41,014 nt of DNA from Planctomycetota bacterium (GTDB taxonomy: Bacteria; Planctomycetota; Phycisphaerae; UBA1845): contig JAJRWX010000004.1 of NCBI GenBank assembly GCA_024276605.1, positions 1 to 41,014 of the forward strand, given 5' to 3'. The position numbers and the translations under genes were made by a program. Shown piece after piece: positions 2,226 to 12,184 of this stretch (the first letter of the stretch is position 1; each line of letters starts with the position of its first letter). The notes beneath the pieces were generated by a model that did no database searches, was not told the DNA's origin, and saw nothing but the letters and a program-made list of their open reading frames with translations.

Positions 2226-2536
2226 ACATGAAGGCCACTAAACACCACGGATAACTTAATGCTGCGTAGACTCCCGATGAATCGGGATTATATATCGCTC
2301 GCGGGGCGGGCGGTTCGGTTTTTTGCCGGACTGCGTCTTGAGGATTGTGGCCAAAGGGGCTTATAATGCCCGACTCGTTTATAGGGAGACGTGGCGTTCA
2401 CTGCGTGGACGATGCGAGCAAGTAGGCCGACGGATTGGCCGACATTTATCCTGTAGATATAGGTTGTAGTTGCCGCTGTGGCTCGACAGCGCGTTTTCAT
2501 CGAACCCGGTTCTAGCAGGCCGGATGGGAAAGTATT

Positions 2537-3472
2537 TTGCCGACTGAACTACCTGACTATCGAATCATCGAACAGCTTGGTGTTGGTGCGGGTTCAGCTA
2601 TCAGTCTGGCTGTTTATATTAAAACGGGCAAAAAATACGCCGTAAAAAATGTGGAACGCCAATCCCCGGACGATGATGTGTTCGTCAAGCAGGCGGAAAA
2701 TGAATATGAGATCAGCCAAAAAATTGATAGCGATTTTGTAAGAAAAACTTTTTCCGTTCATCGCATACGCAAGTTGATGCAGCTCAAAGAATTGATTCTT
2801 GTCATGGAGTTGGTGGAGGGTCTTAATCTTGAGAAAGCGCGTCCCAATCGTCTGAAGACTTTTCTCACGGTGTTTACACGTGTAGCTCAAGGGCTACATG
2901 CCATGCACGAGGCCGGCTATATCCATAGCGACATCAAGCCGACGAACATCATGGTTTCCGCAGGCGGTATGGTGAAGATTATTGACCTGGGACAATCATG
3001 CCCCCTACATTTTCGGAAAGAGCGTATTCAAGGGACGCCTGATTTCATCGCACCCGAGCAGGTGCAACGATTGCCGCTCGATCAGCGCACCGATGTATTT
3101 AATTTGGGCGCGACCATGTATTGGGTGCTAACCTCGGAGAACTTTCCGACCAAGATTCAAGGTACGGACGACCGTGGTGGTATCAATATCATTCGGTCGA
3201 AAAAGCCTATTGCTCCGATCGAGATCAACGATAAAATTCCGCTGGCGTTGTCCCAATTGGTGATGGAATGTTGTCGAGAGCGGGCTGCGGATCGTCCCTC
3301 GGATATGAAGCAACTCATATCGCGCCTCGCGGTGATTCAGACGATTTGGGACAAGCATCGTGAAACCAAGCGCATGGAAATGGAAAGCGGCGGTATGAAT
3401 CCGGATACGCATGATAGCGCGTCCGGTGAGGATGATGATGAGCCAATGATGATACCTGAGGAAGACAAATGA
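2537..3472 (+). CDS. Cytoplasmic Ser/Thr protein kinase (Hanks type)
   Basis: A 311-residue eukaryotic-like kinase. Visible motifs in order: glycine loop GVGAGS (15-20), ATP-binding lysine in YAVK (K37), catalytic loop HSDIKPTN with D132, DLG in place of DFG (D150), and APE in FIAPEQV. The catalytic-loop arginine is replaced by Ser131, as in kinases that need no activation-loop phosphorylation. After the kinase domain comes a short acidic tail. There is no transmembrane or sensor domain, so it acts in the cytoplasm. The start is TTG at 2537; an in-frame TAG at 2513 rules out a longer start. The stop codon overlaps the next gene by 4 bases (ATGA), so the metallophosphatase downstream is probably its antagonist. 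Confidence 0.88.
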   Translation: MPTELPDYRIIEQLGVGAGSAISLAVYIKTGKKYAVKNVERQSPDDDVFVKQAENEYEISQKIDSDFVRKTFSVHRIRKLMQLKELILVMELVEGLNLEKARPNRLKTFLTVFTRVAQGLHAMHEAGYIHSDIKPTNIMVSAGGMVKIIDLGQSCPLHFRKERIQGTPDFIAPEQVQRLPLDQRTDVFNLGATMYWVLTSENFPTKIQGTDDRGGINIIRSKKPIAPIEINDKIPLALSQLVMECCRERAADRPSDMKQLISRLAVIQTIWDKHRETKRMEMESGGMNPDTHDSASGEDDDEPMMIPEEDK

Positions 3473-4323
3473 ATGATGGCGCTTCCGCTGCCGAGGTCTT
3501 TCTCGAAGCTGCAGAACTCAATCGTAACGATCCGCTGCTTACCGGCTCTCTGCTGTCATTTCCTAATTACGGCCAATTGGTGATGACCGGCGATATGCAC
3601 GGACATCGGCGCAATTTCCAAAAGTTAAAATGGTATTGTAAGCTAGAGCAGGCCGGTGCGCGACACGTTGTTTTACATGAACTCATCCATGAAGATGTAA
3701 CGACGATGGATGGTCTGGATACTTCGCACGAAGTGCAGCTATGGGCTGCCCGTTGGAAATGTGAATTTCCGGATCAGGTACACTTTTTGCAGAGCAATCA
3801 CGAACTGGCTCAGCTTAATCGTCAGGAAATTACCAAGAATGGCCGCATCGTCACACAGGCGTTTGAAGAGAGTGTAGCCGTTGCGTATGCCGGTGAAGAG
3901 ACGCGCGTGTTGGATGCGATCAACACGTTCATTCAATCACTTCCACTAGCCGGTCGGACGGCGAACAGAGTTTTTTTGTCGCATTCATTGCCCAGCCCAC
4001 ATGATATACCAAGTTTTGATAAAACCGTGTTGGATCGTGTACCAACGAGGCAAGACCTGACGGAAGGCGGACCGGGGCATCGGCTGGTGTGGGGACGCTA
4101 TCATACGGAGGCTGCGCTGCAGGCCATGGGCCAACTGTTGGATGTCGATATTTTCATGTGTGGCCATCAGCCCCAAGAGATGGGCTATGCCGTGTTGCAC
4201 GACCGCATGATCATTCTAGCCAGCGACCACAACCACGGCGTTTTTCTACCGTTCGATCTTAGCAAGCCGGTCGAAATCAACGATCTGGAAAAACGAATTA
4301 AGCCTTACGCCGGGGTTATATAG
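3469..4323 (+). CDS. Calcineurin-like metallophosphoesterase, probable protein phosphatase
   Basis: A 284-residue protein with the PPP/metallophosphoesterase signature: GDMHGH near residue 38, SNHE near 107 (canonical GNHE), an SHS histidine near 168, and CGHQP near 225 (canonical GHT). The second metal motif, normally GDxVDRG, is changed: the equivalent stretch reads HELIHED, so the bridging Asp may be replaced. It has no signal peptide. It is translationally coupled to the kinase at 2537, whose stop overlaps its ATG. The likely role is dephosphorylation of that kinase or its targets; a nucleotide or Ap4A hydrolase is the alternative. Confidence 0.82.
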   Translation: MNDGASAAEVFLEAAELNRNDPLLTGSLLSFPNYGQLVMTGDMHGHRRNFQKLKWYCKLEQAGARHVVLHELIHEDVTTMDGLDTSHEVQLWAARWKCEFPDQVHFLQSNHELAQLNRQEITKNGRIVTQAFEESVAVAYAGEETRVLDAINTFIQSLPLAGRTANRVFLSHSLPSPHDIPSFDKTVLDRVPTRQDLTEGGPGHRLVWGRYHTEAALQAMGQLLDVDIFMCGHQPQEMGYAVLHDRMIILASDHNHGVFLPFDLSKPVEINDLEKRIKPYAGVI

Positions 4324-4427
4324 TGCTAATAGCGGATATGTTTGTTGTAAGTCATTCGATTTAGCTATCTTGCAAGGTGATCACAGTTAGGTCGTTCTCA
4401 GGCTACCCCATTTTGAGAGTCATTCAA

Positions 4428-4919
4428 ATGGATCACAAAAACAGCCGTGCCCCAAAACAGTTAGGCGACTTTGGCGAGGGGCTTGTTATGTACACACTCA
4501 TCCGTAAAGGATACGAGGTTGCCTGCGTCGATCATGTCGGAGCCGATTTAATCGCTCATAAGGATCAATACAGGATCGCGGTATCAGTTAAAACGCGAAT
4601 GTATCGGGAAGGGTCTTGTGAATCCCAAGGTTTTGTTTTCGAATTCGATCAGCTGAAGAAACTCGAATATTTCGCGAAGCGATTTGATCTTAAGCCTGTA
4701 ATGGCGCATGCTGCTTGCATCGCTGACAACCAAATCATTCATCTTTTTATATTGCGTGTTACGGATATTTATTCCGAACTGAAAAAAATCAAGCGTGGAT
4801 ATAGCATTAATTACAGCCGGAAGCGTTTGAAAGATACAATCAAATTACCGTGTGTAGACTATTCATGCTGGTCCGACGAGCGAATCACTAAAGGATTGTT
4901 CGAGCATAACGGAGCGTAG
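4428..4919 (+). CDS. PD-(D/E)XK nuclease-like protein of unknown role
   Basis: The 163-residue product begins with a region typical of the PD-(D/E)XK fold: GDFGEGLVMYTLIRKGYEV, then GADLIAHKD, then an SVKTR strand. The Glu, Asp and Lys would form the catalytic triad, but the residue before VK is Ser where Glu or Gln is usual, so activity is uncertain. The middle (FVFEFDQLKKLEYFAKRF) resembles group I intron homing or archaeal resolvase-like relatives. ATG 4428 is preferred; a GTG at 4377 would add 17 residues. It stands alone between the kinase-phosphatase pair and the metal cassette. Confidence 0.6.
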   Translation: MDHKNSRAPKQLGDFGEGLVMYTLIRKGYEVACVDHVGADLIAHKDQYRIAVSVKTRMYREGSCESQGFVFEFDQLKKLEYFAKRFDLKPVMAHAACIADNQIIHLFILRVTDIYSELKKIKRGYSINYSRKRLKDTIKLPCVDYSCWSDERITKGLFEHNGA

Positions 4920-4961
4920 GGGGACGCACACCTGAACCATGTACATTCGTTTGTTTCTTTT

Positions 4962-5426
4962 CTACTCTGACGATAATCCAATCTGAACGAATTTCCGCCG
5001 GGTTCGTTTTAGTATCAGATTCCAGGCGGTGCCTGCTACGAGGCTGACGACGCCGACGTAGAGCACAGGCGTTACGTTCCAAACAAGACGCCCGACGACA
5101 ATCGCTGCGGAGCCAAGCACGACAAGTGCCAACGGCCCGACTCTTCGGTATTGATTCGCCGCCCAACCCACGCTGATCACCGAAACGATCAGGAATGCGA
5201 CGATAAGCGGTCGCTGTACGCGATCAGTGAGAAGAAAGCCCAATCGGAGCGAAGAGAGTAGGCCCGCGTATGCGGCGACACATACCGGGCACGAGAAACT
5301 CGGTAAAATCGGCAGCACCGCAGCCGGAATAGCGATGATCGTCTGATACCAAACCCGACGACCCCGCAAGCGGGTTTGCCCGGCGCTTTCTAGAACAGCC
5401 TCGTCCTTCGGTTTGTCAGCCGTCAT
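4962..5426 (-). CDS. MerC-like small membrane protein, probable metal transporter
   Basis: A 154-residue protein with about four membrane segments. The first carries SFSCPVCVAAYAGLLSSL; paired cysteines in the first membrane helix are typical of MerC-type mercury transporters, which pass Hg(II) to the cytoplasm. The start is ATG 5426, which overlaps the TGA of the upstream Cys-rich gene by 4 bases, so the two are translated together. An open frame continues further upstream but lies within that gene. It is the last gene of a MerR-controlled cassette. No mercuric reductase is visible in the window, so the metal could also be another thiophilic ion. Confidence 0.7.
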   Translation of the reverse strand: MTADKPKDEAVLESAGQTRLRGRRVWYQTIIAIPAAVLPILPSFSCPVCVAAYAGLLSSLRLGFLLTDRVQRPLIVAFLIVSVISVGWAANQYRRVGPLALVVLGSAAIVVGRLVWNVTPVLYVGVVSLVAGTAWNLILKRTRRKFVQIGLSSE

Positions 5427-5740
5427 TTGCCTTTTTGGCAGCACGCCGGTGTGGTTTTCTCGTCCGTATTCTTTGCGGTTTTGTTGCCGATTGGACACCG
5501 ATCTTTGCACACAAGCTTCCCGGTGAGCGGGCATACGATTCGACCGGGGCAATCCGGGCGATTGTGGTCAATCGTCGGGCATCGATCCCGGCAGATGAGT
5601 TTACCCGTCTCGGGGCAAACGATCTTGCCAGGGCAGTCTGCCCGTTCTGTATTGGCAGCAGCCAGCTTAACGGCACCAAGCGTGGCCATGCCAAGTATTG
5701 CCAGCGCCAGTACAGAGAGTGTCCATCGTTTAGATACCAT
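5423..5740 (-). CDS. Secreted protein with two four-cysteine repeats, probable metal binder
   Basis: The product of about 105 residues has an N-terminal signal or anchor (KRWTLSVLALAILGMATLGA) and then two near-identical 20-residue repeats that start CPGKIVCP and CPGRIVCP. Each has spacing C-x5-C-x7-C-x3-C and ends DRCP; a CC pair follows near the C-terminus. I do not recognise the family. The ten regular cysteines and the MerR/MerC context suggest export and binding of a soft metal outside the cytoplasm. Three ATGs follow each other (5746, 5743, 5740); the AAGGAG at 5752-5747 is best spaced for 5740. The first ATG overlaps the merR stop. Confidence 0.8.
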   Translation of the reverse strand: MVSKRWTLSVLALAILGMATLGAVKLAAANTERADCPGKIVCPETGKLICRDRCPTIDHNRPDCPGRIVCPLTGKLVCKDRCPIGNKTAKNTDEKTTPACCQKGK

Positions 5741-5742
5741 CA

Positions 5743-6177
5743 TCATCTCCTTCTTTTTCTAGCGGGGCGGATTTCCTTTAACACTTTGCACTCGCTGTTC
5801 GAGCGCTGACAACGGTCCAGTGCCTGCCCCAAGGCTTGCTGAACGCGTTTCAAGTCCTTCATCTTCTCGTTGACTTCCGCCAGGCGCTGTTCCAGCAGTC
5901 GCCTCACTTGGGCCTTGCAGGATTTACCGCTCTCTCCTTCGAGCCGGCCAAGCGCGCGGATGTCATCAAGCGTGAAGCCTACGGCCTGGGCGGAACGGAT
6001 GAACCGCAATTGTTCAATGGCCTGTTCATCGTAAAGACGATAGCCCGCACGGCTTCGCGTGGTTGGTGAGAGGAGGCCCTCCTGTTCGTAGTACCGTAGC
6101 GTGGGCGTAGCCACGCCAGCCGTGCGGGCCACCTCACCGATGGTCATCAATCGATCTGTTTGTGCTTTCAGTGTCAT
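5743..6177 (-). CDS. MerR-family metal-responsive transcriptional regulator
   Basis: The N-terminal winged helix reads MTIGEVARTAGVATPTLRYYEQEGLL, then the dimerisation helix follows. Cysteines lie in GKSCKAQ before that helix and in RCQRSNSEC after it, matching the three-cysteine layout of MerR/ZntR/PbrR sensors. The last two are six residues apart, while MerR has eight, CueR seven and ZntR nine, so the metal cannot be assigned. ATG 6177 is chosen because the promoter at 6187-6218 places the transcript start near 6180; the GTG at 6186 would be upstream of it. It is first in a three-gene overlapping operon that it presumably controls. Confidence 0.88.
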   Translation of the reverse strand: MTLKAQTDRLMTIGEVARTAGVATPTLRYYEQEGLLSPTTRSRAGYRLYDEQAIEQLRFIRSAQAVGFTLDDIRALGRLEGESGKSCKAQVRRLLEQRLAEVNEKMKDLKRVQQALGQALDRCQRSNSECKVLKEIRPARKRRR

Positions 6178-6186
6178 CTCACACAC

Positions 6187-6218
6187 ATTCTACACCTTAA
6201 AGTCAGCTTGAATGTCAA
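6187..6218 (-). promoter_or_regulatory. MerR-type promoter/operator of the metal cassette
   Basis: On the minus strand TTGACA (6218-6213) and TAGAAT (6192-6187) are separated by 20 bases, longer than the normal 17 as in MerR-family promoters. The spacer holds an imperfect dyad, CATTCAAG with CTTTAAGGTG. Transcription would start a few bases from ATG 6177, giving a nearly leaderless message. Confidence 0.75.
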
Positions 6219-6300
6219 GCGGAATACTGAAATTTCTTTTTTTTTCGCCGGGCACCTACGTCGCTTACGCCCCTTAGACTCAGACCCTATGGCATTAAAT

Positions 6301-6379
6301 CAGAGCCGCACGGCGCTAGCCTGCGGTCCTCTTGTAGCCATATGTCGGTATGTCACCAGGCTTACGCCGTGGTGATCTG
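6301..6379. repeat. Family B hairpin repeats, inverted pair
   Basis: The sense copy (6301-6328) has flank CAGAG, outer arms CCGCA/TGCGG, a bulged C, inner arms GGC/GCC and loop GCTA. The reverse copy (6352-6379) has outer arms CACCA/TGGTG, the same bulged C and inner arms, and loop GTAA. Eight well-kept copies occur in the window. Confidence 0.85.
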
Positions 6380-6877
6380 AACTGACCAATGCCGATTCTG
6401 TCATGCACCGTGTCCATCCCCAAACGCCGTAACGCGTGAGCATTCGTTTATGCTGCATTACCGTTGGCGGGTTTAGCCATTGTGATGTTTTGTATATTTC
6501 ATTTTGTGTCTTTGCAGGATGCATAGTTGTGGCATGGAAATTGAAGGCTAAACGGTGGAGGGAGTATTTGAAGGTGCAGGTAGCTGCAGGCTACTTTGTT
6601 TCACCAGTTGATGACTTGAGATTGCCCAAGTTATCATGAGGTGGGGGCTTCAAATCTTCCACTAGGTGTTCATCCTGACTGTATTGTGGCCTTGGATAAG
6701 TACGATGTCTGGGCAGTCTGGCGACTTTCCCAGGTGTTGGAAACATCGCTTGGTGTTTGGCGTACTCTCACTCGGTAGTGGATGGCTTGGTTACCTGTAC
6801 GATCTGGATCGTGTGGGAAGCCGGTCATGCTTGCTATCAAAGAGTATTCGTCATTCACCCGGTAGGAGAATCGACTG
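6380..6877. other. Gene-free stretch upstream of the thiolase-like gene
   Basis: Nothing codes convincingly; the short open frames lack family resemblance and ribosome sites. It must hold the promoter for the thiolase-like operon, but I cannot place it. A TAGGAG ribosome site sits at the right end (6863-6868). Confidence 0.5.
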
Positions 6878-8248
6878 ATGATCAAACTGAGTCGAGAGAA
6901 CTTGCGCATTCCTAAATTCGAGAAACCCGTCTATGTCGTGGCTGGCGGCTTAACGGATTATCGCAAGCGTTATCCCGAAAAGAATTCCTGCCAATTGTGT
7001 ACGGAAGCGATACGCATGGCCGTCGAGCAGAATGATCTGAAGGTCTCGCCTGATGAATTGCGCAGTATGGTCAATTGGTGTGTCTATTCGCAGTTTGCAG
7101 ACCACTTTGGTGACCAGCTACTTGCGGCAGCCAAGATTCATGATTACCTGGGGTTCGACCCGCTGGGTAACATCGAAGTCAAGACGGGTGGCGCAACGGG
7201 TGGTTCGGCGGTCTTATCGGCTGCGCAGGCCGTGGCTTCCGGGTATGCCAATTGTGTGCCCGTTGTCGGCTGGGAGCGCATGGACGAGGTATCCACCAAG
7301 GTTGGTAACTCCTACATTGCTAGCGCCGCGTGTAAGGATTTTGAGAGTGAGTTAGGTTGGATGTATGCCAGTTACTATGCACTCATGGCGCAGCGTTATC
7401 AATTTGAAAATAACGTGCCGCGTGAAACGCTGGCTCAAATCGCTGTGAAAAATCATGAGTATGCCTGCTATTCGCCTTACGCGCAAAGCCCCGGCAAGTA
7501 CAGCATTGAGGAAGTCCTTAAGAATGATATTGTGTCCCATCCGCTTTCGTTTTTAGAATGTTGTACCATGAGCGTGGGGTCGGCGGTGCTGTTTCTGGCT
7601 GACGAGGAGACGGCCTACAAGTTGACGGATCAGCCCATTTTACTGAAGGCGATTTGCGGCGGCTCCCATACGTTGAGGACAGCTGACCGACGTCATATGC
7701 CGATCTTGCTATTGCCCAATGAGACGGAGGAGACGTACAAGGATTACTTCACCGGTGATCGCGCCGACTGGCCGGGATTCAGTTCATTCCTCGCGTCGCG
7801 CATGGCTGCGTATTTGGCGTATAACATGGCTGGCATCAAAGACCCGGTCGAGGATTTCGACCTTCTCGAAACGCACGATGCCTTCACCATCAGCGACATT
7901 CAAACGTATGAGGACATCGGCCTGCGACCGTATGGCCGTGGAAGAGAATTCATCGAGTCCGGGGATGCATACTTCGAAGGGCGATTGCCGACTAATCTCT
8001 CCGGCGGTTTGATTGGTACGATGCATGCGGTTGGGGCGACGGGTATTTTTCAGATTGTCGAACTTCTCTGGCAACTACAAAACAAGTGGGAAAAATTTCA
8101 TGCTGACCCTGAACTCTGGCATCGATACGGAAAGAACAAACCGTCCGATTTCCGTAATCTGCAGGTGGAAAACGCCAGACGTGCGTGTGCAATTTCTCAT
8201 GCTGGAACGGGTAGCCACGTGACGTGTGCCATACTAGAGAAACCATAG
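6878..8248 (+). CDS. Thiolase-superfamily protein (SCP-x/acetyl-CoA acetyltransferase type) lacking the nucleophilic Cys
   Basis: The 456-residue product has the thiolase layout: an N-terminal half with GGATGGSAVLSAAQAVASG (about 104-122), LSFLECCTMSVGSAVLF in the middle, an ETHDAF motif (H333) and GTMHAVGATG (H383) matching the conserved GHPxGATG. Where SCP-x enzymes read CATG with the acyl-accepting Cys, this one reads GATG (Gly105). So it may catalyse a condensation without an acyl-enzyme, or act as a partner subunit. ATG 6878 has TAGGAG upstream. The next gene is a zinc-ribbon OB-fold (DUF35) protein, the usual partner of archaeal-type thiolases and HMG-CoA synthases, so a complex is likely. 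The substrate is unknown. Confidence 0.82.
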   Translation: MIKLSRENLRIPKFEKPVYVVAGGLTDYRKRYPEKNSCQLCTEAIRMAVEQNDLKVSPDELRSMVNWCVYSQFADHFGDQLLAAAKIHDYLGFDPLGNIEVKTGGATGGSAVLSAAQAVASGYANCVPVVGWERMDEVSTKVGNSYIASAACKDFESELGWMYASYYALMAQRYQFENNVPRETLAQIAVKNHEYACYSPYAQSPGKYSIEEVLKNDIVSHPLSFLECCTMSVGSAVLFLADEETAYKLTDQPILLKAICGGSHTLRTADRRHMPILLLPNETEETYKDYFTGDRADWPGFSSFLASRMAAYLAYNMAGIKDPVEDFDLLETHDAFTISDIQTYEDIGLRPYGRGREFIESGDAYFEGRLPTNLSGGLIGTMHAVGATGIFQIVELLWQLQNKWEKFHADPELWHRYGKNKPSDFRNLQVENARRACAISHAGTGSHVTCAILEKP

Positions 8249-8294
8249 AACGACGCGTCGCTATAGCGTGTTTATCTCAAAAGGAGCTGTATCA

Positions 8295-8765
8295 ATGATC
8301 GACTGGCCGACGGCAACTTTAGAAGTGAAGGACCGCGACCCGCTGGTCGTGCAAAATCCCAAAACATGGTCGCATAGCCACAGCTATGGAGGCTGGGGAA
8401 AATTCTTCCTGGGGTTGCAGGAAAAAAAGATTTTAGCCACGCGATGTGTCAATCCAAGCTGCGCCGAAAAACGGTTGTGGCTACCGCCTAGATGTGAGTG
8501 CCCGGACTGTTGGTCGGAGATGGAGTGGTTAGAGGCTCCGCAGGAGGCGCGAATCTATACCTGGAGCGTGGTGAAGTACCCTGGTGAACTGTTCAAACTA
8601 CCTTCCGATACACCATTGATTAGTGTTGAAATTGAAGGTGTCTGCACCAAGCTATTGAGTTGGCTCAAGGATGGCGAACCTAAAATTGGTATGCCGGTTA
8701 ACGCGGTCTTCAATACGGGCAGGCCTACGAACACCATATTAGATTTGGCTTGGGTGCCGAAGTAG
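8295..8765 (+). CDS. Zinc-ribbon/OB-fold protein (DUF35), thiolase partner
   Basis: A 156-residue protein. A rubredoxin-like zinc ribbon (CVNPSC, then CPDC) precedes an OB-fold half from ARIYTWSVV onward, the DUF35 arrangement. Members of this family bridge thiolases with acyl-CoA synthases and help channel intermediates. ATG 8295 is chosen because AAGGAG at 8281-8286 stands 8 bases ahead; an in-frame GTG at 8268 has no such site. It is 46 bases after the thiolase-like gene in the same direction. Confidence 0.85.
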   Translation: MIDWPTATLEVKDRDPLVVQNPKTWSHSHSYGGWGKFFLGLQEKKILATRCVNPSCAEKRLWLPPRCECPDCWSEMEWLEAPQEARIYTWSVVKYPGELFKLPSDTPLISVEIEGVCTKLLSWLKDGEPKIGMPVNAVFNTGRPTNTILDLAWVPK

Positions 8766-8783
8766 AGATTGAACGAGACGTGA

Positions 8784-9128
8784 ATGAGTGAGTCCACGGC
8801 AGACAACGGGAATACTTGGCCGGCGATTATCGATGAGTTACCGGAGGCTGATCTTCCGATCGATGGGCTGCATGGGCGAATTCTCAAATGCGGTGACTAT
8901 TCGATATTATTTTTGGTCGCAGCCCATGATGTGACCGTACCCAAGCACCAGCACGAAGCACAATGGGGCATTGTGCTTGCCGGTAGTATGGAGATTACTA
9001 TTGGCGACTCCCAATTCATTTATCAGCGTGGCGATATGCACTACATTCCGGCGCATGTTGATCACAGTGCCGTGATACACGCCGGATGGCGAGGCTTGTA
9101 TATTTTCAAACGAAGAGATTCGGAGTAG
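8784..9128 (+). CDS. Small cupin-domain protein
   Basis: 114 residues forming a single cupin barrel. Motif 1 reads KHQHEAQWGIVLAGSMEI, motif 2 reads GDMHYIPAHVDHSA, giving His residues for a bound metal. It starts 18 bases after the OB-fold gene and ends the operon. The function could be a metal-dependent isomerase, dioxygenase or a sensor; the neighbours suggest a role in the same acyl-CoA pathway, but this is inference. Confidence 0.8.
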   Translation: MSESTADNGNTWPAIIDELPEADLPIDGLHGRILKCGDYSILFLVAAHDVTVPKHQHEAQWGIVLAGSMEITIGDSQFIYQRGDMHYIPAHVDHSAVIHAGWRGLYIFKRRDSE

Positions 9129-9250
9129 CACTAACTTATCCCAATGAAGGCACGGATCATGGGCATAGGCTGATAGTGCTTAGTTACAGCTAATATTTCG
9201 GGTGACATGGGCAAGGCTTTTTTTGCCCGTGGTGGCCACCGGAGCTACAC

Positions 9251-9303
9251 GGGTAAGTCCCGATGTATCCCGACGAATAGTCGGGATACATCGGGACTTA
9301 CCC
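9251..9303. repeat. 24-bp perfect inverted repeat
   Basis: Arm 9251-9274 (starts GGGTAAGTCCCGATG) and arm 9280-9303 (ends CATCGGGACTTACCC) are fully complementary around loop GAATA. The flanks ACAC and ATGCCACCC recur around the smaller hairpin at 19415, so this is one repeat family. It could also end transcripts from the cupin operon. The weaker palindrome GGTGGCCACC lies just left of it. Confidence 0.9.
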
Positions 9304-9415
9304 ATGCCACCCGAATTCTTAGCTGTGATGAAGCACTAGGCTATGAAATCGGGAAATATTTCGGTATAATGGTAGTCTCGGAGCCGGAACAAGTCGGGTA
9401 ATGGAGGAGATTGGA

Positions 9416-10450
9416 ATGATAGTCAGAACAATTGCGCTGACGGTTGTGTATCTTTCTTGTACTGCGTGGGTAAGTGCCAATCCACCGGAGTTCGTACTCG
9501 AGTGGGGATCAAACGGAGCCGGCGATGGCCAGTTTGGCGGAGCGCATGGGATCGAAGTTGACGCTGACGGGAATGTCTACATAGCTGATACGAGTAACAA
9601 CCGCATCCAGAAATTTACGAGTACCGGTGTCTTTGTCATGAAGTGGGGAACCGCCGGCACCGGCCCCGGTCAATTCAATCATCCGCACGGCATCGGCATC
9701 GGCCCGCTGGGTAATATTTACGTTGCCGAAACCGGAAACAATCGCGTCCAGAAATTCGCCAGTGACGGAACCTTTATCGCGACGTGGGGCTCGTTCGGTA
9801 CGGGCGATGGACAGTTTCAGCACAACCACGGGCTGGCTGTGGATAGCAACGGAAACGTCTTCGTGGCGGATCGGAATCAGAATCGTGTACAGAAGTTTTC
9901 CACAGACGGCACGTTCCTCCTTGCCTTTGGAACGACGGGTACGGGCGACGGTCAGTTTAATGGTACGAACGGCGTCGCGGTGGATGGCGATGACAATGTG
10001 TTTGTGGGTGACAGCAGCCCACGGATTCAGAAGTTCACGAATGACGGCGTGTTCATTACCTCGTGGGGTTCCGCCGGCGCCGGGGATGGCCAGTTCAACT
10101 TCCCGAGGGGGCTTTCGACCGATGAGCTGGGCAACGTTTACGTGTGTGATCGAAACGACCATCGCATACAGCAGTTTACGGGCACCGGGACATTTTTATC
10201 TTCTTGGGGTTCTTTAGGAGGTGGTGAAGGCCAGTTTAACCTTCCATACGGCATACGCGCGGGCACAAACGGAATTGTTTACGTTTCCGACTCGAACAAC
10301 TTTCGTGTGCAGATGTTCCAGTTTCCTCAGACGAATGTTCCGACAACATCCGCATGGGGGATGGCTGTCATGATTCTACTATTGTTGACGGTTGGATCGT
10401 TGGTGCTGAGTAGGGGAGGAATTATCTCGGGCAACTGTCTTATCGCATGA
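9416..10450 (+). CDS. Exported six-bladed NHL-repeat protein with VPTT-type C-terminal anchor
   Basis: About 344 residues. A signal peptide (IVRTIALTVVYLSCTAWVSA) leads into six NHL repeats of about 47 residues, each built on GxxGxGDGQF...GIAVDxxGNVYVAD...NRIQKF. The end reads VPTTSAWGMAVMILLLLTVGSLVLSR: a VPTxSxWG motif, membrane helix and Arg, as in IPTL-CTERM sorting signals common in Planctomycetota. The propeller probably binds ligands outside the cytoplasm, and the tail is likely cleaved or retained at the membrane. ATG 9416 is preferred since GGAGGAG at 9403-9409 is 6 bases upstream; the ATG at 9401 would start before that site. Confidence 0.88.
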   Translation: MIVRTIALTVVYLSCTAWVSANPPEFVLEWGSNGAGDGQFGGAHGIEVDADGNVYIADTSNNRIQKFTSTGVFVMKWGTAGTGPGQFNHPHGIGIGPLGNIYVAETGNNRVQKFASDGTFIATWGSFGTGDGQFQHNHGLAVDSNGNVFVADRNQNRVQKFSTDGTFLLAFGTTGTGDGQFNGTNGVAVDGDDNVFVGDSSPRIQKFTNDGVFITSWGSAGAGDGQFNFPRGLSTDELGNVYVCDRNDHRIQQFTGTGTFLSSWGSLGGGEGQFNLPYGIRAGTNGIVYVSDSNNFRVQMFQFPQTNVPTTSAWGMAVMILLLLTVGSLVLSRGGIISGNCLIA

Positions 10451-10806
10451 CGCGGGATGCTTACGCTACGTCCAGAACAATCGCCCTAGGTGCAAGACGA
10501 TGGGCCATGCCTTTTCTCTCCTAGGTGGTGGTGCCACGTGATTTGTTCGCTACTATCTTGGGGCGAATCTAGCGGCTTGATTTCTCATAACTGGGAACAG
10601 TTTGGTCAGCGCTCATTCCTAATCACCATCCGCCAGTATTCAAGCCGTCATTCCGCCGCTTCGTCCTAACGTCCAAGCTTATTATCGAACTTGTGGAACG
10701 TACATATGGAATTGTGCTAGAATGCTACATTGATGACCTGCCCCCGTTGCATGTACCAGTTGTTTTGTGAGTCGGTAGATCGAATGATGAGTTTGGTAGG
10801 AGTCGT
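10451..10806. other. Gene-free stretch
   Basis: I see no coding frame, repeat copy or RNA gene here. It ends with a TAGGAG site for the next gene and presumably carries that gene's promoter. Confidence 0.5.
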
Positions 10807-11922
10807 ATGATGTCACGCTTTTATATCGGGTTTATGCTTTCGGTATTGTTCGCTTTGCAACCGAATGAGGTGCAAGCACAATCAAAACAGATGGGGACGA
10901 CGGCGGGGCATCTTTTAACCGCCCAAAGGAATCTTGCTATCGACAGTGCGTTATCGACTCAACTCGATGCCGCTATAGTCGGTGTTGATATTGATAATGA
11001 CGGCGTGCCTGACGTAATAGATGTCTGCAACAATACGCCGATGGGTATACCAGTTGATTCGGTCGGACGACCTCGCGGTGATTTCGATATAGACTGCGAT
11101 ACCGACCTCGTCGATTTGGGGCTGTTTCTTGCTGGTTTCACCGGCCCCATGATGCCGGTCACCGATCATTCGTGTAACCCGATTACGCAAATCGGATGCC
11201 CTGTCAGCCAGAAGTGTACTTTAATTCCGGACGCGCAGAATCCATTGAATTTGCGGACGGTTTGTCAAGCCGATGGGACGGTGCCATTGGGCGGCACTTG
11301 CTCGACGGATCCGGTGACCAGCGTCGACAACTGCACAGCCGGTATGCTCTGTTCCAACGACACGTGCATGGCGTTTTGCTCTGATGCACCAAATACATGT
11401 TCAGCGTTAGAGCAGTGCTATGTCTTATCCGGTCCTGTGGATAGCCCGGGCGTGGGACTGTGCAAGGAACCTTGCGATCCACTTTCCAGCGTAACCAACT
11501 GTCCAAGTGGTGAGGCCTGCTATGTGTACTTTCAACCGCAAATGTCTGTGTGTGCCTCACCGGCGGGAACAGGAACGCAAGGAGTCGATTGTCAATATAT
11601 AAACGATTGTGCAACAGGCTATAGTTGCGCACTGAACAACTCACCAGTGAATTCGACAGGTTTGACCTGTGCATTTATCTGCGATGCATCGCGTAGTGGC
11701 GGCCCAACATGCTTGGACGGTCCTGGATCCACCTTTCGATGCGCACAAATCAATCTGTTCTACGCGAATGCATCTTACTTACCCGATAACTATGGTATGT
11801 GCATCGATCCTGTAGAGTGGAGTATCTTCGATGAGGACGGCGATACCATACTGGACTTCAATGATCTTTGTCCCGGCACTCCGCCGGGAACACCCGTCGA
11901 TGCCGACGGTTGCCCGCTGTGA
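10807..11922 (+). CDS. Secreted Cys-rich protein with calcium-binding (thrombospondin-3/dockerin-like) repeats
   Basis: A 371-residue exported protein. After the signal peptide (cleavage likely near VQA|QS), DIDNDGVPDVIDVCNNTP is a thrombospondin type 3 repeat. Next comes GDFDIDCDTDLVDLGLFLAGFTGP, in the dockerin-like DxDxDxDLxDxxxFLxxFxGP style of Planctomycetota. The central 230 residues hold about 25 cysteines in CxxxxxC-type modules (CPVSQKC, CSNDTC, CPSGEAC) resembling myxobacterial surface modules. A second type 3 repeat, DEDGDTILDFNDLCPGTPPG, ends the protein. It is probably a structural or adhesion protein stabilised by disulfides and calcium. ATG 10807 follows TAGGAG. Confidence 0.8.
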   Translation: MMSRFYIGFMLSVLFALQPNEVQAQSKQMGTTAGHLLTAQRNLAIDSALSTQLDAAIVGVDIDNDGVPDVIDVCNNTPMGIPVDSVGRPRGDFDIDCDTDLVDLGLFLAGFTGPMMPVTDHSCNPITQIGCPVSQKCTLIPDAQNPLNLRTVCQADGTVPLGGTCSTDPVTSVDNCTAGMLCSNDTCMAFCSDAPNTCSALEQCYVLSGPVDSPGVGLCKEPCDPLSSVTNCPSGEACYVYFQPQMSVCASPAGTGTQGVDCQYINDCATGYSCALNNSPVNSTGLTCAFICDASRSGGPTCLDGPGSTFRCAQINLFYANASYLPDNYGMCIDPVEWSIFDEDGDTILDFNDLCPGTPPGTPVDADGCPL

Positions 11923-12110
11923 TTAGCATTAACACGGAGAACATACACCGTTGGTGTTTGGCATGGATTGTCACTCATCGTCTAGGCCCGCCCTTGGCTA
12001 TGACGGCGCGCGAGGATAATAGGTGACACCTGTACGCTTGAATGACTATGTGTATTATTGGGACGTCAAGTAATAGGCCAAGTCTGTGGCTTGAATCGCC
12101 GATCTGACTG

Positions 12111-12138
12111 GTAGTGTGTAGTGTGTAGTGTGTAGTGT
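12111..12138. repeat. Tandem heptanucleotide repeat (GTAGTGT x4)
   Basis: Four exact copies of GTAGTGT lie 47 bases before the YjfB-like gene, in the gap 11923-12184. Slippage could change its length. No gene is visible in the rest of the gap. Confidence 0.9.
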
Positions 12139-12184
12139 TTGTTTGCGCATTAACCAGTGCTAGCATTTGATTAAGGCTTAAGTT

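Follow-up and report, generated by a model that had tools for sequence, protein, structure and literature searches.

The cassette at positions 4962-6218 (minus strand) of the 41,014-nucleotide stretch of planctomycete DNA analysed here (hereafter the window) is a mer-like system in a new variant, with a new protein family. It consists of a MerR-type promoter, a merR-type gene, the gene for a putatively exported cysteine-module protein (hereafter the Cys protein) and a MerC-family gene, in that order. The Cys protein recurs in planctomycete bacteria, its gene adjoining those for a metal-responsive regulator and for membrane importers of the mercury type, which makes it a probable envelope trap for mercury or a comparable soft metal. 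We consider, with moderate confidence, that the findings jointly are best explained by a MerR-switched mer-like operon, in which an envelope Cys trap would work with a MerT or MerC importer, without mercuric reductase. The family is compact and well bounded, with a testable soft-metal role, in a phylum for which mercury genetics are thin (one planctomycete MerA, according to an excerpt of PMC8261052).

Cassette layout, cysteine modules and distribution

The promoter/operator (6187-6218; TTGACA-N20-TAGAAT, an imperfect dyad) is followed on the minus strand by the genes for a 144-aa MerR-type regulator (5743-6177; Pfam MerR_1, 5e-21, and MerR-DNA-bind, 1e-15), the 107-aa Cys protein (5423-5746) and a 154-aa MerC-family inner-membrane protein (4962-5426; Pfam MerC, with a CPVC pair at residues 46/49). 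A 4-nt ATGA overlap at both the merR/Cys gene and the Cys gene/MerC junctions confirms the tight succession of three genes under one MerR-type promoter proposed in the first-pass annotation, the right edge of which, at 6218, was exact: the promoter runs from 6218 to 6187 and DNA homology to relatives starts at about 6219. The higher GC content noticed there was also found, at 56.4% for the cassette versus 51.0% (sd 2.4) for 373 stretches of equal length elsewhere in the window, all of them below the cassette value. Elsewhere in the window, positions 1-682 lie inside a 16S rRNA gene, and the rRNA genes may be unlinked, because Rfam gives no 23S rRNA in the window.

The Cys protein begins with positively charged residues, followed by a hydrophobic stretch (presumably an N-terminal signal or anchor), two modules, a polar tail and, four residues from its end, a vicinal CC (residues 102-103; 5438-5443, minus strand). 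Module 1, CPGKIVCPETGKLICRDRC (residues 38-56; 5579-5635, minus strand), and module 2, CPGRIVCPLTGKLVCKDRC (residues 66-84; 5495-5551, minus strand), are separated by nine residues and have exactly the same C-x5-C-x7-C-x3-C spacing; the two nearly identical four-Cys modules and terminal CC read from the sequence at first pass were therefore correctly described. The predicted structure suggests one hairpin per module, and shows no metal site because the model is poor (mean pLDDT 54).

A scan of genome contigs with the window Cys protein yielded 23 relatives (L004-L026), 21 in planctomycete-titled records and two acidobacterial. Together with the window and 14 loci from a whole-genome search (L046 and L048-L060), they constitute a set of 38 loci, nearly all from Planctomycetota and partly non-independent (L024/L026, L015/L048, L049/L050, L054/L055 and L057/L058 are one-genome pairs), from which L047 (same contig as L015) and L061 (sister subfamily, see below) were left out. 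Each protein has one or two modules. The four cysteines are invariant in all 58 strict modules, as the search pattern itself demands, and positions left free in that pattern are also fixed, with D at position 17 in 56 of the 58 and I or V at position 5 in 57; conservation of the module cysteines goes beyond chance. The CC tail is kept in 35 of the 38 loci, the exceptions being L060 and two loci that look degenerate, L023 and L050, and a simple pattern detected a lipobox-like motif before the modules in four. L023 and L050 hold decayed copies, the latter in the same genome as the intact paralogue L049.

When 392 planctomycete genomes were searched with a profile of the family (A1), which includes the window protein and leaves out the broken copy L023, 14 matched at E 0.001. 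The matches in G178 and G344 were weak and fit the sister subfamily better; the 12 genomes with a strong match are hereafter referred to as carriers. Of the 100 closest genomes to that of the window, which is counted among them, 20 contain a match to the family; the plasmids, phages and viral contigs searched contained no relative of the Cys protein.

This patchy presence, the GC content and a different site in a congener indicate that the cassette looks mobile, in line with the first-pass suggestion of horizontal acquisition. In congener G393, the counterparts of window 2335-4316 and of 12166 onward lie next to each other, separated by about 1.4 kb that contains a different open frame, and window 4317-12165 is absent from the corresponding place. 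The G393 cassette is found on other contigs, broken at merR, with 76-83% identical DNA (the copy on its contig C10 is L005, and hence among the 38 loci); mobility is supported by this location elsewhere. The other congener, G392, had no Cys-protein match. DNA similarity to the window begins at 6219-6220 for L004, L006 and L009 and ends at 4982-4985 for L004, L005 and L006, without flanks. In five relatives, cassette GC is close to flank GC, which argues against base composition simply marking the cassette as foreign. The cassette thus acts as one unit, placed within a stretch (4317-12165) that varies within the genus, although an assembly error in a metagenome-assembled genome (MAG) is possible. 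It is adjoined by a dispersed intergenic repeat (6297-6380), with 65 more partial matches in the window's own genome and some in G393.

Importer neighbours and mercuric reductase

The window's MerC-like protein belongs to Pfam MerC (PF03203; 36.6 bits for a cut-off of 27.6, and 37.8 in the genome search), has a CxxC aligning with that of canonical MerC and is the sole MerC match in its genome; against the NCBIfam organomercurial transporter MerC equivalog it scores 19.5 bits versus the 140 required. According to an excerpt of PMC3466566, merC had been found solely in beta- and gammaproteobacterial mer operons. The importer expected of a mer operon is a MerC in the window and a MerT in relatives. 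Same-strand MerC- or MerT-family genes occur within 4 kb downstream of the Cys gene at 22 of the 38 loci: MerC in seven (accompanied by MerT in L006 and L008) and MerT alone in 15. Neither is present within this distance in 14 loci, and L013 and L022 have no downstream DNA by which to judge. These counts come from searches with profiles built from the loci themselves, all-frame ORF clustering being too noisy for gene counts, and five MerT proteins were checked against Pfam and NCBIfam; in all five, MerT and HMA follow either a CopZ-like zinc/iron-sulfur part or a thioredoxin part of the DF type. One-chain MerT-HMA fusions with CopZ-N or DF-type (seleno)protein domains are seen in L015, L058, L012, L016 and L060. 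At the genome level, MerT was found in 10 of the 12 carriers versus 33 of the other 380 planctomycete genomes (392 in all; Fisher p 5e-9), the window's own genome being one of the two carriers without it. A further same-strand gene downstream of the Cys gene is common to L005, L006, L007, L008, L015, L018, L023, L052 and L058; its products resemble outer-membrane barrels, and the one from L005 has a match below threshold in Pfam.

MerT operons of other planctomycetes revealed a sister subfamily. Six of 20 fetched MerT loci, drawn from 48 MerT places listed, hold in or beside the operon a protein of 52-79 residues with a hydrophobic start and the ending CPLTGEELPCxxCCP (L086 2895-3062, L091 4132-4296 and L101 3284-3520 on the plus strand; L094 3928-4083, L096 4600-4776 and L099 4290-4457 on the minus strand). 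The sister profile (A4) was related to A1 with 96% probability in a profile comparison. The sister protein was found at E 4e-7 or better in 10 of the 392 genomes, eight of which have MerT, and for the two subfamilies combined the association with MerT was 17/21 versus 26/371 (p 8e-15; 392 genomes); the six A4 seeds were themselves drawn from MerT loci, which biases the A4 association and hence the combined figure; the A1 test is free of this bias. L061 (6402-6701, minus strand) encodes a two-module version of the sister protein.

The reductase of a mer operon was not found: no carrier genome reached the cut-off of the MerA model TIGR02053. Any one absence means little, since several carrier genomes are MAGs with a completeness of 80-99%; its recurrence in 12 of 12 is nevertheless notable. 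Carriers do contain MerA-like ORFs, with many matches, all below the cut-off; the 12 best, on inspection, had no C-terminal CC, and these ORFs were read as related disulfide reductases. A second MerA model gave four matches at E 1e-100 among the 392 genomes, none over its cut-off; each of the four sequences has CC at its end and MerT nearby, and the A1 protein occurs in none of the four genomes, the sister protein in one (G238). The MerB search gave no match, and none in controls either. An importer without a reductase is expected to poison the cell, and the absence of MerA, unforeseen at first pass, complicates the idea that the Cys protein feeds an importer; the soft-metal role put forward with that idea receives partial support from the recurrence of the family with a soft-metal MerR-type switch, MerC and MerT. 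The role of MerT/MerC importers in cells without mercuric reductase is the question that this raises. Excerpts of PMC8261052 list a single planctomycete MerA and discuss strains without MerA, and a reference title in PMC4570782 concerns mercury hypersensitivity with cloned mer operon fragments.

The strongest competitor of the trap-and-importer account, a real possibility although an unlikely one, is that the Cys protein serves in sequestration rather than supply, as an exported metallothionein-like sponge keeping Hg(II) or Cd(II) from the cytoplasm, with MerC/MerT serving another flow or acting outward with neighbouring efflux pumps. The lack of MerA in all carriers, the one or two modules per protein, the lipobox-like motifs and the presence of RND or P-type ATPase genes around some copies would fit such a sponge, but the tight linkage with importer families (22/38) suggests co-operation with transport.

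Regulator, promoter and proposed mechanism

A MerR-type gene lies directly upstream of the Cys gene, on the same strand, in 33 of the 38 loci; in the other five, merR is divergent (L017), just downstream (L051) or absent (L056), or less than 80 bp of upstream DNA is available (L005 and L007). Three cysteines occupy metal-site positions in 32 of the 35 regulators read, L017, L020 and L026 being without the first. Those of the window regulator (C87, C123 and C130) align with the cysteines of an annotated plasmid Hg(II)-MerR, and the regulator thus has the three cysteines corresponding to Cys82/117/126 of Tn501-type MerR. Excerpts of PMC5027573 describe Hg(II) binding by three cysteines of MerR, the first-position Cys being the additional ligand relative to CueR.

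The identity of the metal is less clear from the regulator of the window itself. Its metal loop is two residues shorter than that of plasmid MerR, as in CadR, with a CadR-like C-x6-C spacing, and its closest solved structures are those of CadR. NCBIfam scores were 111 bits for ZntR, 101 for CueR, 99 for MerR (98.9 for the Hg(II)-responsive MerR model TIGR02051, with a cut-off of 150.85) and 98 for CadR, all below cut-off. These features would suit a Zn(II), Cd(II) or Pb(II) system for which Mer-like names are misleading, a reading that we rate slightly below sequestration. Against it, the Hg MerR model was the best match in eight of nine relatives' regulators scanned (L053 was best with a Zn model), none of which was above cut-off, the top one reaching 142.1 bits on TIGR02051 versus about 151 needed, and MerC and MerT represent Hg-importer families distinct from each other. 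The co-occurrence of these two families and the fit of the relatives' regulators to Hg MerR favour mercury, and Hg(II) is, we infer, most likely the divalent soft metal involved; the best score of the window regulator with ZntR and the missing MerA are the reasons for which Zn/Cd/Pb and sequestration retain some probability.

Copper is improbable. The Cys protein might be a periplasmic Cu(I) binder acting with CopZ-like fusions, given the zf_CopZ/BFD domains fused to MerT-HMA proteins and the copper, RND or P-type ATPase genes adjoining some copies of the Cys gene (CopA/CusA-like beside L020, L022, L024, L006 and L018, named by eye, and by Pfam for L006), but the first-position Cys, which Hg MerR uses as a ligand beyond those of CueR according to the PMC5027573 excerpts, is kept in 32/35 regulators.

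The -10 element of the window promoter ends 9 nt before the merR ATG, a gap so short that the merR mRNA may be nearly leaderless (6177-6187). A TTGAC hexamer with a -10 element at exactly 20 bp was found in 32 of the 38 upstream stretches, other spacers of 12 to 28 bp in 0 to 4 of them, and the 20-bp promoter in 200 shuffled sets (single-base shuffles) at a mean of 0.065 and a maximum of 2. This promoter precedes merR in the window and its nearest relatives and lies between merR and the Cys gene in many others, making the Cys gene the first regulated gene in those loci. The L060 and L051 promoters have CCGTA..TACGG arms in common with an annotated mer operon promoter (19-bp spacer); spacers of Hg-MerR promoters are 20 bp in Gram-positive and 19 bp in Gram-negative bacteria, according to an excerpt of PMC5027573. 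The cassette thus has the MerR-type regulator on a long-spacer dyad promoter of mer operons.

Under the favoured account of a MerR-switched trap and importer, the MerR-type sensor is predicted to bind a divalent soft metal through its three cysteines and, when loaded, would untwist its own 20-bp-spacer promoter, yielding the regulator itself, the exported Cys protein and the MerC-family membrane protein. The Cys protein would lie at the outer face of the inner membrane, where its four-thiol hairpin modules may capture metal outside the cytoplasm; its flexible terminal CC would then hand the metal to the MerC CxxC (or, in relatives, to MerT-P fusions at their HMA and CC), or the protein may simply hold it. 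In an oxidising periplasm, its cysteines could be present as disulfides. A broader proposal, which we advance tentatively and consider unlikely in its full extent, is a reductase-free soft-metal (mercury) defence of Planctomycetota, in which a MerR-switched, exported multi-hairpin thiol trap, from a superfamily of two subfamilies, would take the roles of MerP and MerA by envelope binding and vicinal-Cys exchange with MerT/MerC and CopZ-like fusions.

Known families and related systems

The Cys protein founds a new family, absent from the databases searched: it matched no Pfam, NCBIfam or PDB family above cut-off, consistent with the first-pass remark that no known family has such spacing, and the literature search found no description of it. 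The NCBIfam search with the window protein gave no match, and the single Pfam match, to EGF_BRNP1-3 (PF25415), was sub-threshold (17.8 bits versus a cut-off of 27, over 14 residues). The 23 aligned members gave weak matches alone (best Pfam E 2e-4, best NCBIfam E 0.003), none taken as membership. PDB sequence matches to PHD-finger-like proteins (TRIM66; E 0.8-5) were rejected as due to chance. The least probable alternative, a disulfide-rich structural protein with EGF- or Kazal-like hairpins and no metal role, accords with an extracytoplasmic location and with the weak EGF_BRNP1-3 match in 11 of the 23 members (best E 2e-4), but that match, the sole candidate for the known non-metal disulfide-rich family that would have spoken against the soft-metal role, was rejected as weak and sub-threshold, and the modules have four cysteines, not six, in a constant metal-operon context. 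The 19-residue module is short enough for peptide synthesis and might be developed into a metal binder or a component of a biosensor.

Bacterial metallothioneins resemble the Cys protein in being short, Cys-rich and, probably, metal-inducible, but the Cys protein is predicted to be exported and has a fixed C-x5-C-x7-C-x3-C module, with no Pfam or NCBIfam metallothionein match among family members. MerP, an HMA-fold periplasmic Hg(II) scavenger, is likewise a small exported thiol protein adjoining a Mer importer; the Cys protein differs in having four-Cys modules and a terminal CC, and its window representative has no HMA match in Pfam or NCBIfam. The window regulator shares three Cys at metal-site positions with ZntR, CadR and Hg-MerR, but falls below every equivalog cut-off. 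In relatives, proteins similar to MerTP fusions and MerT-CopZ-like transporters (NCBIfam NF033556 and NF045683) are encoded close behind the Cys gene, below the NCBIfam cut-offs and with an extra CopZ-N or DF-thioredoxin domain, whereas the window has MerC instead. The closest overall parallel is with the mer operon (merR-merT-merP-merC-merA, e.g. that of P. aeruginosa plasmid pPA942-IMP45), which the cassette resembles in its MerR-type switch, long-spacer promoter, MerC/MerT-family importers and a predicted extracytoplasmic thiol protein at the MerP position; it differs in being without MerA and, in the window, a free-standing MerP, in having merR co-directional with the operon, and in its novel Cys-module protein.
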